Positions 25,601-47,600 of a DNA stretch of 64,000 nt are shown in pieces. Below the pieces are notes generated by a model. That model was not told the origin of the DNA and ran no database searches. It worked only from the letters and a program-made list of their open reading frames with translations. Position 1 is the first letter of the stretch. Each line of letters starts with the position of its first letter. Made by a program: the position numbers and the translations under genes. The DNA comes from Streptomyces sp. RKND-216 (GTDB lineage: Bacteria > Actinomycetota > Actinomycetes > Streptomycetales > Streptomycetaceae), in assembly GCF_004795255.1 (NCBI RefSeq), contig NZ_SSBQ01000002.1, positions 4,060,001 through 4,124,000 of the forward strand. Reading direction: 5' to 3'.

Positions 25601-28600
25601 CCAAGTCGCTGCACGTCGAGGAGCCGTCCTCGCACATCGACTGGTCGGCGGGCGCGGTGGAACTGCTGGCGGAGGAGCGTGCCTGGACGCGTGAGGACGA
25701 CCGTCCGCGCCGCGCCGGGGTCTCGTCCTTCGGCGTCAGCGGCACGAACGTGCACGTGATCCTGGAGGAAGCCGACGAGGAACCCGCCGTGGAGGCGGCG
25801 GAGTCCGGGCCGGAGACGGTGCCGTGGCTGGTGTCGGCGCGTAGTGCGGCGGGTTTGCGGGGTCAGGCGGCGGCGTTGGTGCCGTTGGCGGGTGGTGACC
25901 TCGACCGTGCCGCGGTGGGTTGGTCGTTGCTGTCGACGCGTGCGGTGCTGGAGCACCGTGCGGTGGTGACGGGTGATTTCGGGGCGGGGCTTGCGGCTCT
26001 GGCGGGGGGTGAGCCTGCGGACAATGTGGTGGCGGGTGTGTCGGGGCCTGTGGGGCGGACGGCGTTTGTGTTTCCGGGTCAGGGTGCGCAGTGGGTCGGT
26101 ATGGGTGCCGCTCTGCTGGATGCTTCGCCGGTGTTCGCTGGGTCGGTTGCTGCGTGTGAGGCGGCGATGTCGGGGTATGTGGACTGGTCGCTGGCGGCTG
26201 TGTTGCGGGGTGAGGAGGGGGCGCCGTCGCTGGAGCGGGTGGATGTGGTGCAGCCTGCGTCGTTTGCGGTGATGGTGTCTGTTGCGGCGTTGTGGCGGTC
26301 TTTTGGTGTGGAGCCGCAGGCGGTGATCGGGCATTCGCAGGGTGAGATCGCTGCTGCGTGTGTGGCGGGGATTTTGTCGCTGGAGGATGCGGCGCGGGTG
26401 GTGTGTCTGCGGAGCAGGGCGATCGCGGAGATCGCGGGCTCGGGTGGCATGGCGTCCGTTGCTGTGTCGGTGGAGCGGGCGGAGGAGTTGATTGCTCGGT
26501 TCGAGGGCCGTGTCTCGGTGGCTGCGGTCAACGGGCCTTCGCAGGTGGTGGTTTCGGGCGAGGCTGCGGCTCTGGATGAGCTGGGTGCGGTCTGTGAGCG
26601 TGAAGAGGTGCGCTTCCGCCGGGTGGCGGTGGACTATGCGTCGCATTCGGTGGCGATGGAGGAGCTGCGCGAGACCCTGGCGACTGCCTTGGCCGGTGTG
26701 ACGCCGCAGGCGGGCAGTGTGCCGTTGATGTCGACGGTGTCGGCGGAGTTGGTGGATCCGCTCAGCATGGATGCGGGGTACTGGTTCACGAATCTGCGGC
26801 AGCGGGTTCGGTTCTCCGAGGGCGTGGCGAAGTTGGCCTCGGAGGGTTTTGGTGTGTTCGCGGAGATGTCGTCGCATCCGGTGATGACCTCGGCGGTCGA
26901 GGCGACGGTGGACGCCATGGGTGGTGAACCCGTTGTGGTGACGGGGTCGTTGCGTCGTGAGGACGGTGGTCTGGACCGGTTCCTTGCCGGGCTCGCCTCC
27001 GTTTGGGTCCGGGGCGTCGAGGTGGACTGGTCGGTTGCCTTCGGCGACACTCCGCCGCCGACCGTTGACCTGCCCACCTACGCCTTCCAGCGTCGTCACT
27101 ACTGGCTGGAGGACCAGGCCCCCGACGAGCCCGGCCGTCAGGTCGACGCCATCGACGCCGAGTTCTGGGCCGCCGTCGCGGCGAACGACCCGTCGTCCCT
27201 CGCCCGTACTCTCGGCCTCGACGACGACGCGTCCGGCCCCCTCCGGGAACTGGCGCCCGTGCTCGCCGACTGGCGGCGCGACCGGGAGGCGGCCACCGAG
27301 GCCGACTCCTGGCGCTACGACATCACCTGGAGCCCGGTGACCGGCGGCGAACGCCCGCGCCTCGCGGGCGCCGTCTGGCTTCTCCTCGTGCCCTCCGGCG
27401 CGGAGGGCTGGCCCTCGCTCGCCGCCCAGGCGCTTGAGGCGCACGGCGCCGAGGTCCGGTTCCTAGAGGTTTCGGACACCGAACGCGCCGCCCTGACAGA
27501 CCAGTTGCGGACGGCCGCGGACGGCGTCACCGGGGTGCTGTCCCTGCTGGCCTTCGACGCCCGGCCGGTGCTCGACCCCGCTGTGGCGGTGATCCAGGCG
27601 CTCGGGGACGCCGGTATCGCGGCGCCGCTGTGGTGCGCGACGCGCGGCGCGGTGTCCGTCGGCTCCTCGGACAAGGACGTCCGCCCCGACCACGCACTCC
27701 TGTGGGGCCTCGGCCGCATCGCCGCCATGGAGTACCCGCACCGCGTCGGCGGTCTCGTCGATCTCCCCGCGACGGAGGACGAGCGCGCCGCCGAGCGGCT
27801 GGTGGGCGCCCTGACCGCGCCCGACGGCGAGGACCAGCTGGCCGTGCGGTCCGGCGGTCTCTATGCACGGCGCCTGGTGCGCCGCCCGTCGGCCGGCACG
27901 CCGGACGTGCGGAGCTGGCAGCCGCGCGGCACCGTGCTCGTCACCGGCGGCACCGGCGGCGTGGGCGCCGAAGTCGCGGCCTGGCTGGCCGCGTCGGGAG
28001 CCCCGCACCTGCTGCTCACCAGCCGGCGCGGCCCCGACGCCCCCGGCGCCGACGCACTGGTCACCCGGCTGGAGGCGCTGGGCGCGGAGGTGACGGTGGC
28101 GGCTTGCGACGTGGCGGACCGCGACGCCCTCGCCCGCGTGCTCGACACCGTGCCCGCCGCACGCCCCCTCACCGCCGTGGTGCATGCGGCGGCCGTCTTG
28201 GACGACTGCCTGCTCGACGCCCTGACGCCCGAGCGCGCGGCGGCCGTCCTGCGCCCGAAGGCGGACGCGGCCCGCAACCTGCACGATCTGACCCGGGACA
28301 CAGACCTCGACGCCTTTGTGCTGTTCTCCTCGCTCGGCGGCACCCTGGGCGGCCCCGGCCAAGGCGCCTACTCGGCGGCCAACGCCTACCTGGACGCCTT
28401 GGCGGCCGCCCGCCGCGCCGAGGGCCTGCCCGCGACCTCGCTCGCGTGGGGCAGCTGGGCGGAGGTCGGACTGGCCGCAGGTGTGGAGTGGGAGGAGCGC
28501 CTGCGGTCCACCGGCATGGGCCGGATGGCGCCCCAGACCGCGCTCACCGTGCTGCGGCAGGCCCTCGACGAGGACCTGACCTACCTGGCTGTGGCCGACA

Positions 28601-44650: not shown

Positions 44651-47600
44651 ATGACGGATTCCTCCTCCGCCGCCAAGGTCGTCGATGCCCTGCGCAAAGC
44701 GTTGCGGGACAACGAACAGCTGAAGAAGCGCAACCAGCAGCTGGAACAGCACGGCCGCGACCCGATCGCGATCGTCGGCATGGGCTGCCGGCTGCCCGGA
44801 GGCGCCGACAGCCCCGAGAAGCTGTGGGACCTGCTGGCCGACGGCGGCGACGCCGTCACCTCCTTCCCCGACCGCCCGGGCTGGGAACTCGACTCCCTCG
44901 TCGACCGCGACGCCGAGCGGAGCGGCACCACCTACGTCAGCCGCGGCGGTTTCCTGCACGACGCCGACCTGTTCGACGCGGGCTTCTTCGGCATCAGCCC
45001 GCGCGAGGCCGTCGCCATGGACCCGCAGCAGCGGCTGCTGCTGGAGGTCGCCTGGGAGACGCTCGAACACGCCCGCATCTCACCCGCGTCCCTCCGCGGC
45101 ACCGCCACCGGCGTGTTCGCGGCGGCCACCGGCCAGGACTACGGGCCCATGGTGAGCCGGTCCGGCATGGAGACCGACGGCTTCCTGGCGACCGGCAGCG
45201 CCGGCAGCATCGCCTCCGGCCGCATCTCCTACACCCTCGGCCTGGAGGGCCCGGCCGTCACCCTGGACACCGGCTGCTCCTCCACGCTGGTCGCGCTCCA
45301 CCTCGCGGTCAAGTCGCTGCGTTCGGGGGAGTGCTCCCTCGCCCTGGCCGGCGGCGCCACCCTCATGGCCAGTCCCGCCACCTTCAGCGAGTTCAGCGCG
45401 CAGAAGGGCCTCGCCCCCGACGGCCGCTGCAAGCCGTTCTCCGACGACGCCGACGGCACGGCCTGGGGCGAGGGCGTCGGCATGCTGCTCGTCGAACGGC
45501 TCTCCGACGCGCGGCGCAACGGGCACCGCGTGCTCGCGGTCGTCCGTGGCACGGCGGTCAACCAGGACGGCGCGTCCAACGGCCTGACGGCGCCGAACGG
45601 CGTCTCGCAGCAGCGGGTGATCCGGGAGGCGCTCGGCAACGCGGGCCTCACCCCGGCCGACGTGGACCTCGTGGAGGCGCACGGCACGGGCACCACGCTG
45701 GGCGACCCGATCGAGGCAGAGGCCCTGCTCGCCGCCTACGGCCAGGACCGCCCGGAGGGGCGGCCGCTGTGGGTCGGCTCGGTCAAGTCGAACCTCGCCC
45801 ACACCCAGGGCGCGGCGGGCGCGGCGGGCATCATCAAGAGCATCCTCGCGATGCGGCACGGCGTGATGCCCAAGTCGCTGCACGTCGGCACCCCTTCGAC
45901 CCACGTCGACTGGTCGGCGGGCGCGGTGGAACTGCTGGCGGAGGAGCGTGTCTGGACGCGTGAGGACGACCGCCCGCGCCGCGCCGGGGTCTCGTCCTTC
46001 GGTATGAGCGGCACCAACGCGCACGTGATCCTGGAAGAGCCCCCGGCGGAGACGCCTGCGGACGAGCCCGGCGACATCCCCGCGGCGCTGCCGTGGCTGG
46101 TGTCGGCGCGTAGTGCGGCGGGTTTGCGGGGTCAGGCGGCGGCGTTGGTGCCGTTGGCGGGTGGTGACCTCGACCGTGCCGCGGTGGGTTGGTCGTTGCT
46201 GTCGACGCGTGCGGTGCTGGAGCACCGTGCGGTGGTGACGGGTGATTTCGGGGCGGGGCTTGCGGCTCTGGCGGGGGGTGAGCCTGCGGACAATGTGGTT
46301 GCGGGTGTGTCGGGGCCTGTGGGGCGGACGGCGTTTGTGTTTCCGGGTCAGGGTGCGCAGTGGGTCGGTATGGGTGCCGCTCTGCTGGATGCTTCGCCGG
46401 TGTTCGCTGGGTCGGTTGCTGCGTGTGAGGCGGCGATGTCGGGGTATGTGGACTGGTCGCTGGCGGCTGTGTTGCGGGGTGAGGAGGGGGCGCCGTCGCT
46501 GGAGCGGGTGGATGTGGTGCAGCCTGCGTCGTTTGCGGTGATGGTGTCTGTTGCGGCGTTGTGGCGGTCTTTTGGTGTGGAGCCGCAGGCGGTGATCGGG
46601 CATTCGCAGGGTGAGATCGCTGCTGCGTGTGTGGCGGGGATTTTGTCGCTGGAGGATGCGGCGCGGGTGGTGTGTCTGCGGAGCAGGGCGATCGCGGAGG
46701 TCGCGGGCTCGGGTGGCATGGCGTCCGTTGCTGTGTCGGTGGAGCGGGCGGAGGAGTTGATTGCTCGGTTCGAGGGCCGTGTCTCGGTGGCTGCGGTCAA
46801 CGGGCCTTCGCAGGTGGTGGTTTCGGGCGAGGCTGCGGCTCTGGATGAGCTGGGTGCGGTCTGTGAGCGTGAAGAGGTGCGGTTCCGCCGGGTGGCGGTG
46901 GACTATGCGTCGCATTCGGTGGCGATGGAGGAGCTGCGCGAGACCCTGGCGACTGCCTTGGCTGGTGTGACGCCGCAGGCGGGCAGTGTGCCGTTGATGT
47001 CGACGGTGTCGGCGGAGTTGGTGGATCCGCTCAGCATGGATGCGGGGTACTGGTTCACGAATCTGCGGCAGCGGGTTCGGTTCTCCGAGGGTGTGGCGAA
47101 GTTGGCCTCGGAGGGTTTTGGTGTGTTCGCGGAGATGTCGTCGCATCCGGTGATGACCTCGGCGGTCGAGGCGACGGTGGACGCCATGGGTGGTGAACCC
47201 GTTGTGGTGACGGGGTCGTTGCGTCGTGAGGACGGTGGTCTGGACCGGTTCCTCGCCGGGCTCGCCGCGATCTGGGTGCGTGGGGCGCATGTGGACTGGT
47301 CGGTTGCCTTCGGCGACACTCCGCCGCCGACCGTTGACCTGCCCACCTACGCCTTCCAGCGCCAGTCGTACTGGCCGACGTTCGCCACGAGGGAGGACGT
47401 CTCCGGCTCCGAGGGCGGCGGTAGCGTCGTGGACGCCGAGTTCTGGGCCGCCGTCCAGCGCGGCGACGCCGCAGCGCTCGCGACGGCGCTCGACACCGAC
47501 ACCTCCGTCCTCGATCCGCTGATGCCGGCCCTCGCGGGCTGGCACCGGCAGCAGCAGGAGCAGAACACCACCGACGGCTGGCGCTACGAGGTGAAGTGGC

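Follow-up and report, generated by a model that had tools for sequence, protein, structure and literature searches.

A G/T-rich, AT-coding block of about 1.3 kb recurs almost unchanged in three modules of one Streptomyces PKS cluster. We are highly confident that it belongs to the GRINS (genetic repeats of intense nucleotide skews) and that gene conversion has homogenised it among modules of that PKS. GRINS have been described before (PMC10394414, PMC9899208, PMC11907408), and the block adds a further example to that class. What is new here is that the same module positions are skewed in three orthologous clusters despite change in the AT sequences themselves.

Near-identical AT blocks and their composition

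The window, i.e. the whole stretch of 64,000 nucleotides that was analysed, contains the following features:

19678..34572, + strand: PKS2, modules 3-5 (Pfam and motifs)
25578..25681, + strand: 3' end of KS4, in which runs 25578-25618 and 25637-25681 are identical to KS8, upstream of an unlike linker
25820..27092, + strand: block A, the PKS2 copy of the GRINS, in the methylmalonyl-type AT of extension module 4 (GHSQGE at 26329, YASH at 26635)
26998..27021, + strand: patch found in A only, in which 11 of 24 bp differ from B and likewise from the third copy
44651..58603, + strand: PKS4, modules 8-10 (motifs)
46089..47361, + strand: block B, the PKS4 copy of the GRINS, in the AT of extension module 8
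47362..47587, + strand: unskewed tail of 226 bp, exactly equal in B and C, not in A, ending abruptly at a WRY motif
60261..61160, + strand: second GRINS family, in the malonyl-type AT of module 11, with further copies past the window's end in modules 16 and 18
61881..63140, + strand: repeat covering the KR region of module 11, high in identity and weak in skew (mean absolute values of 0.15 for GC and 0.26 for TA); we do not class it as GRINS

The original prediction described A and B as an indel-free repeat at an offset of 20,269, and direct alignment reproduced it exactly. The copies differ at 17 of 1273 bp (98.7% identity): six mismatches fall within 25820-26997 (one I/V replacement and five silent changes), 11 in the patch at 26998-27021 and none in 27022-27092. 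The 5' start is as abrupt as had been claimed, since 30-bp windows just outside it are 0.60 and 0.47 identical and the first window inside is 1.00. The KS 3' ends upstream of A and B also have short exact runs in common (41 and 45 bp), so the block is not the sole stretch common to both modules. Their sequence motifs predict methylmalonyl as the extender type of the blocks.

The composition of the block departs sharply from that of its own gene. Wobble bases in A are G 0.61, C 0.17, T 0.22 and A 0.005, and in the same-gene flanks G 0.34-0.37, C 0.57-0.59, T 0.02-0.03 and A 0.04, in agreement with the claim of T/G-rich wobble inside and C-rich wobble outside. Equal GC3 in block and flanks had been named as evidence against that claim; we found 0.78 in the block and about 0.94 in the flanks. 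GC and TA skews are 0.329/0.450 in A, 0.335/0.452 in B and 0.303/0.419 in a third copy, C. The skew extends to codon position 1, to the T/A balance at position 2 and to amino-acid composition, with V, G and S raised and T, P and H lowered. The module-4 AT contains 14.1% valine, 9.1% serine, 2.8% threonine and 0.9% histidine, against 9.7-12.2, 5.0-7.2, 3.1-6.2 and 1.2-2.8%, respectively, in the six remaining ATs of methylmalonyl type in the cluster. The founding GRINS paper of 2021 (doi 10.1073/pnas.2100751118) reportedly names the recoding of a protein region in its title, and the amino-acid shift of the module-4 AT is a recoding of this kind.

As characterised in later accounts of the class, GRINS are about 1 kb long, share more than 90% identity with a second region of their own PKS, are skewed in both GC and TA by more than 25% and are linked to gene conversion (PMC10394414, PMC9899208, PMC11907408). 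We called them by the rule given in PMC9899208, here with ungapped identity: identity >80% over at least 500 bp (often >90%) and skews >0.25 or mean absolute skews >0.15. The block is of the right size and lies inside assembly-line PKS coding DNA, its 98.7% identity spans 1273 bp, A, B and C all exceed the skew threshold, and the mosaic tracts and the differing AT and KS/KR topologies described below link it to gene conversion. The called region, 25731-27110, has a mean best identity of 0.98. Across a 99.5-kb stretch, the 153 windows with both smoothed skews >0.25 likewise have a mean best identity of 0.98, as against 0.71 in the remaining windows.

Could the codon usage instead betray a foreign origin? 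The original prediction proposed that an AT cassette had arrived from a genome with other codon usage and was copied afterwards. GC3 below that of the flanks and abrupt edges are what such an arrival would leave, but we consider it very unlikely. The donor search that had been suggested returned no close donor: the best DNA match over the whole block was 74% identical (plasmids) and the closest whole-block protein relative 69%. Among genomes of 84,980 named species, in which near relatives may be absent, the best protein match was 68% among the best 80 matches listed, and a phage search gave no match to the block. A search of 392 genomes of the genus, scoring no more than two stretches in each, gave a best non-self match of 81% identity over half of a 1500-base query, located in a relative's orthologous cluster. 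Thus, no donor with the same sequence and a matching genome-wide codon usage was found in these collections of plasmids, phages, named species and genus genomes, incomplete as they are. Moreover, amino-acid composition is shifted too, and the skew is local, turning up in the same confined way in ATs of other clusters. Both skews exceed 0.25 in some window of 83 of 179 related AT rows (tblastn alignments of at least 330 columns), an upper figure because these ATs were chosen by likeness to a skewed query, and in only 2 of 175 upstream KS stretches. We reject a foreign donor given the lack of a close match in any of these collections and the local nature of the skew.

Mosaic copies and the AT, KS and KR trees

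Copy C, absent from the original prediction, lies outside the window in module 14 of the same genome (C2:4133060-4134332). The three copies were placed in AT domains by Pfam in PKS2 (Pfam was run on PKS1 and PKS2) and by motifs in PKS4 and PKS5. They form a mosaic. The 5' edge is common to A and B, and the 3' part together with the 226 bp of unskewed DNA, whose composition was measured by overall skews alone, is common to B and C. Two C-rich, native-looking patches are kept at the 5' end of C and one patch at the 3' end of A. This pattern calls for two or more conversion events whose ends did not coincide.

Two other explanations were weighed. Repeats of this type may trouble assemblies, and a draft cluster, MP113-05, has a 2,377-base gap that takes in KS8 together with the 5' portion of the module-8 AT, among many further gaps. 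Nevertheless, it is extremely improbable that the copies are an assembly duplication: they differ pairwise by 17, 34 and 47 bases over 1273 positions, they occupy three separate genes with unlike flanks and no internal stops, the window lies inside one 5.58-Mb contig, and two other assemblies show skew in these modules as well. Alternatively, each AT could have been recoded in parallel, without copying, by selection on RNA or translation (favouring slow codons at a folding point, say), which would yield skew at the same modules in three clusters. We give this hardly any credence, as it would not make the copies agree in their synonymous codons along exact runs of 399 to 662 bases and leaves the exactly common, unskewed B/C tail unexplained.

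The trees carry the case for gene conversion further. AT identity among modules 4, 8 and 14 of this genome is 0.98-1.00, compared with 0.71-0.73 to the orthologues in a related cluster, G382. For KR the order is reversed, with 0.75-0.77 to the G382 orthologues and 0.62-0.67 among the three modules here; KS orthologues of these modules are 0.79-0.83 identical. In a tree of 40 ATs, the ATs of modules 4, 8 and 14 of this genome form a 100/100 clade, and AU tests on ATs reject pairing of the module-4 (p 1.8e-4) and module-8 (p 1.1e-7) orthologues; pairing of the two module-14 ATs is not rejected (p 0.143). The KR and KS trees, built from the 28 of 38 module KRs with a found motif (the other ten were left out) and from 38 KSs, pair the three modules with their orthologues in a collinear cluster at bootstraps of 98-100, and AU tests reject them as one clade (AU p 8e-86 for KR, 5e-6 for KS). 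This topology disposes of a recent whole-module duplication in which only the AT retained its identity, the least probable explanation of all even though KS4 and KS8 are rather alike (0.81).

In trees of 40 and of 59 ATs, most ATs follow their cluster and not their position in the assembly line, and those of a third cluster, G152, likewise group by genome. The ATs of modules 4, 8 and 14 of G382 do not form a single clade (AU p 7e-4), since the loading-module AT of that cluster joins that of module 14, and the ATs of modules 1, 2, 5, 6, 7, 10 and 19 are still grouped by position. Since KS4 is as similar to KS8 as to its own orthologue (0.81 in both cases), some KS stretches have been homogenised too. 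Modules 13 and 15, which are unskewed in all three clusters when the cut-off is set at 0.25, group by genome as well, as does module 9, unskewed in two. Skew is therefore not required for homogenisation, and we reject a strict tie between the two. Two further genomes, G392 and G179, scored well as candidate sources of orthologues, with matches on draft contigs.

The copying between modules that had been predicted is well supported by the three-copy mosaic and by the AT versus KS/KR trees. An AT-coding stretch of about 1.3 kb is most probably homogenised by non-reciprocal recombination (gene conversion), and in this genome a single AT version occupies modules 4, 8 and 14. We infer the agent of the copying, which would be the cell's homologous recombination, as well as its direction between modules, the extender specificity of the copied ATs and some process that keeps renewing the skew at these sites. 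The suggestion that the block is bounded by natural AT-exchange points is at best partly right: breakpoints differ among the three copies, and three tracts in G382 break inside the AT, no more than about 60 bases to the 3' side of the catalytic GHSQGE motif. Because tract ends vary in this way, the block edges are not fixed exchange points.

Skewed module positions in three clusters

Modules 4, 8, 11, 14, 16 and 18 are skewed in this cluster and in G382 and G152. The ATs of modules 4, 8 and 14 are only 71-76% identical between genomes, yet they are skewed at the same positions. One possible reading is that GRINS are tied to module positions that are ancestral conversion sites, where an active composition-biasing process renews the skew and ATs turn over faster than the flanking KS and KR. 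We consider this reading less likely than not, the more so because both comparison clusters were first found through a search with the skewed block. If it is true, GRINS are lasting hot spots at set modules rather than passing copies.

What might generate the skew? The cluster is on the leading strand, judged from dnaA, in all three genomes. In a lagging-side region of S. noursei, two ATs show this coding-strand skew too, reaching 0.49/0.52 and 0.49/0.54 in their best windows, and this one counter-example region, with its origin assumed by dnaA, disfavours a simple replication-strand cause. A positive coding-strand window occurs in 79 of 173 distinct ATs and a negative one in 4, so the sign is not universal. 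Runs of at least three G on the coding strand number 34 per kb in A and 13 in PKS1. A G-quadruplex idea was dropped because there is no four-run motif on the coding strand of A, B or C.

All ATs of modules 4, 8 and 14 carry methylmalonyl motifs, here and in both related clusters, and copying among these modules has therefore probably left the product unchanged. In module 3 and the loading module, AT type differs between clusters. Counted by motif, the cluster has 19 extension modules; ossamycin and the HM190 22-membered macrolides, with 14 and 13 extension modules in the accounts consulted, were rejected as products.

Relation to known systems and significance

The block resembles published GRINS in its length of about 1 kb, high identity, dual skew, location in the AT of a PKS with built-in ATs and link to gene conversion, and it differs in no defining feature set out in the GRINS accounts consulted. 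Beyond the definition given there are the module positions common to three orthologous clusters, breakpoints that vary by copy and by cluster, and an unskewed stretch inside one conversion tract. Concerted evolution in which AT branches by cluster and KS does not was described for some ansamycin and polyene clusters by Medema et al. 2014 (PMC4256081), and the same pattern holds here. Skew, present here, is unmentioned in the relevant section of that paper, and most but not all ATs are affected here. The azalomycin F PKS has GRINS in modules 3 and 6 (PMC9899208) and, like the present cluster, carries skewed tracts that are almost the same from one module to another within a single Streptomyces PKS. 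As that source presents them, its tracts are KS-AT-DH-KR and involve two modules, whereas ours are AT-centred and involve three, alongside a separate malonyl AT and KR family.

For PKS engineering, the point at which a tract common to two modules happens to end is not, as such, a safe cut site. More broadly, the block is a mapped example of assembly lines rewriting themselves. The three orthologous clusters constitute a natural experiment with the same module addresses, separate copying rounds and closely readable tract ends, and it includes two positions, module 3 and the loading module, at which AT type differs between relatives.

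Three copies of one AT block

The host polyketide synthase (PKS) is encoded by seven genes between about 7.5 kb and 103.5 kb (window numbering). By motif it comprises 19 extension modules and one loading module, whose KS motif, DTGQASS, has Gln in place of Cys. The two near-identical blocks of the original prediction, A and B, are as claimed: they align at an offset of 20,269 with 17 mismatches in 1273 bp. A encodes the AT domain of extension module 4 and B that of module 8. Six mismatches fall in the first 1178 bp, five of them silent; the 3' part holds 11 mismatches in 24 bp, followed by 71 identical bases. 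Both ATs carry GHSQGE and YASH, which we take to be methylmalonyl-type motifs. Published work also refers to the use of YASH. A third copy, C, absent from the original prediction, lies in module 14 (C2:4133060-4134332, on the contig carrying the window) and is 96% identical to A.

25820-27092: block A, AT of module 4, PKS2
46089-47361: block B, AT of module 8, PKS4
C2:4133060-4134558 (window numbering 73060-74558): third copy with shared tail, module 14, beyond the window
2760-3773, reverse strand: ABC transporter ATP-binding protein scoring above the DrrA (daunorubicin resistance) subfamily cut-off, possibly serving the cluster in export or self-resistance

The three copies form a mosaic. In the initial 130 bp A matches B, and C departs from them at 31 sites; these lie in two C-rich patches on either side of 60 bp that are the same in all three. 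Between this region and 26997 the copies vary at just seven sites; at 26998-27021 A differs at 11 sites and B equals C; and all three are identical after 27021 as far as 27092. Past 27092 A diverges, and B and C remain identical for 226 bp more, through unskewed DNA, to 47587 and 74558. A minimum of two events, ending at different points, is therefore required.

Strand skew and class of the repeat

The atypical codon usage first noticed in the block is real: wobble bases in A are G 0.61, C 0.17, T 0.22 and A 0.005, and the same gene outside A is C-rich at the wobble position. Block A has a GC skew of 0.33 and a TA skew of 0.45, reaching 0.43 and 0.59 in 450-base windows. The cluster has six further methylmalonyl-type ATs, and compared with them block A is also skewed at codon position 1 (GC skew 0.53; the six range over 0.23-0.36); at position 2 the T/A balance alone shifts (0.26; the six, 0.12-0.19). 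In the encoded protein Val, Gly and Ser are up and Thr, Pro and His are down. The bias of block A is a strand skew and not just a foreign genome's codon preference.

The proposed arrival of the cassette from a foreign donor is not supported, given this skew and the lack of a close donor among the plasmids, phages and genomes searched. The best whole-block DNA match was 74% identical, to a Streptomyces plasmid whose own AT is skewed (C3 0.07-0.08, A3 0 in two 300-base windows). Among the matches listed, the best protein identities were 68-69%, and no phage record matched the block. When 392 genomes of the genus were searched, with at most two stretches scored per genome, 13 passed E 1e-120, RKND-216 among them; the matches listed outside RKND-216 were 69-75% identical, plus one of 81% over half of the query in MP113-05. 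Both skews exceeded 0.25 in at least one 450-base window in 83 of 179 related AT rows, which were picked by likeness to a skewed query and give no general frequency, versus 2 of 175 upstream KS stretches. A mirror-image skew was seen in related ATs of S. violaceusniger and S. rugosispiralis (three ATs in locus L111, one in L101), strongly negative in the 3' third (down to -0.59 GC and -0.41 TA) and occurring three times in one locus.

The A/B repeat is a GRINS (genetic repeat of intense nucleotide skews), a known repeat class of assembly-line PKSs. An Open Biology survey describes GRINS as about 1 kb long, with GC and TA skew >25% and often with >90% identity to some other part of the PKS in which they lie. 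We took the calling rule from the azalomycin paper (PMC9899208) and ran it with ungapped identity on a 99.5-kb stretch that takes in the seven PKS genes. Of 30 high-identity regions it marked 8 as GRINS, three of them inside the window, blocks A and B included. Within this stretch, mean best identity was 0.98 for the 153 windows in which both smoothed skews exceeded 0.25 and 0.71 for the remainder. Modules 11, 16 and 18 share a second GRINS family, located in their malonyl-type ATs:

60261-61160: second family, in the window
84531-85400: second family, beyond the window
93711-94760: second family, beyond the window

Conversion between modules

Related PKS clusters were compared. That of G382, a genome of the same genus, is collinear; over 17.3 kb it matches the cluster of Streptomyces sp. 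A 4/2 at 98.9% identity. That of G152 is rearranged, and module 1 was not found in it. The cluster of MP113-05 (Streptomycetaceae), likewise of this genus, is 79.5-88% identical over the eleven best matches. Its draft (L137-L143) has many N gaps within PKS genes; one of 2,377 N (78177-80553, reversed numbering) takes out KS8 together with the 5' portion of the module-8 AT, which keeps the repeats of this cluster from being judged. Repeats of this kind may be under-reported in draft genomes.

Each KR and KS domain of modules 4, 8 and 14 branches with its counterpart from the matching G382 module (bootstrap 98-100), and AU tests reject their grouping by genome (the KR tree covers 28 of 38 modules). 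The ATs of these modules are 0.98-1.00 identical within RKND-216 versus 0.71-0.73 to their G382 orthologues; for the ATs of modules 7 and 10, which are unskewed, identity between the three clusters is 0.77-0.79. The AT tree unites the three RKND-216 ATs at 100/100. AU rejects pairing by module with G382 for modules 4 and 8, does not reject it for module 14 (p 0.143), and rejects a single clade for the three G382 ATs (p 7e-4), because the loading-module AT joins module 14 there. In a quick AT tree of all three clusters, modules 2, 5, 6, 7 and 19 group by position throughout, module 1 does so in the two clusters having it, and module 10 does so together with RKND-216 module 3. In modules 4, 8, 14, 9, 11-13 and 15-18 the ATs cluster by genome instead of pairing by position, with the G382 ATs split into several groups. 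KR stretches of modules 11, 16 and 17 are skewed, and these KR domains likewise group by genome.

The predicted copying between modules, rather than a duplication, is thus upheld by KS and KR domains that pair by module, ATs that group by genome and the three-copy mosaic; topology and tracts together show conversion. The block boundaries had been proposed as natural exchange points; tract ends vary between lineages, so these points are not fixed. In G382, near-identity covers reference 25843-26380 for the loading-module and module-14 ATs (60-base windows 0.93-1.00), 26023-26380 for modules 4 and 8 (0.90-1.00) and 26383-26890 for modules 8 and 14 (0.85-1.00), with a common break at most about 60 bases 3' of GHSQGE (26329).

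In each of the three clusters modules 4, 8 and 14 have methylmalonyl motifs, and their copying therefore looks neutral for the product. The module 3 AT has methylmalonyl motifs in RKND-216 and G152 and malonyl motifs in G382; in G152 the loading-module AT has malonyl motifs, and in RKND-216 and G382 methylmalonyl ones. Since these odd-type ATs (G382 module 3, G152 loading module) fall among ATs of their own genome, copying that changed AT type probably took place in relatives. As to the skew, a universal coding-strand sign is disfavoured (4 of 173 ATs are negative), and one S. noursei region on the lagging side, with the same coding-strand skew, speaks against a simple replication-strand cause.

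Skewed modules shared between clusters

Each AT was scored by its best 450-base window, with both skews >0.25 as the cut-off. Skewed modules numbered 6 of 20 in RKND-216, 9 of 20 in G382 and 11 of 19 in G152. All six of RKND-216 (4, 8, 11, 14, 16, 18) recur among the skewed modules of both G382 and G152, and 8 of 19 shared modules (2, 5, 6, 7, 10, 13, 15, 19) are unskewed in every one of the three clusters. Skew rank correlations between clusters were 0.89, 0.76 and 0.76. At this cut-off Fisher p was 0.0022 for RKND-216 with G382, and 0.018 and 0.0007 for the pairs with G152; at 0.3 the pair with G382 was significant (p 0.0002) and the pairs with G152 were not (p 0.35, 0.17). These p values are guides only, because modules are non-independent, their copies sharing history. 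G152 modules were assigned by best KS match, except 12, 17 and 18, placed by order because module 18 is the best match for each of their KS; the same three are unpaired by position in the KS tree of RKND-216 and G382. Both related genomes were first met through the skewed-block search, which favours skew at modules 4, 8 and 14. An unskewed KR4-KS5 search of the same 392 genomes returned G382, G169 (MP113-05), G392, G152 and G179 at the top; the module-by-module comparison covers G382 and G152 among these five.

Concerted evolution of AT domains was already reported in 2014 (PMC4256081). The literature searched, the founding GRINS paper excepted, yielded no statement that GRINS module positions are shared across orthologous clusters. 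GRINS are already known as a repeat class, and what is added here is comparative detail. This detail from related clusters makes the standing question of what keeps the skew easier to test.
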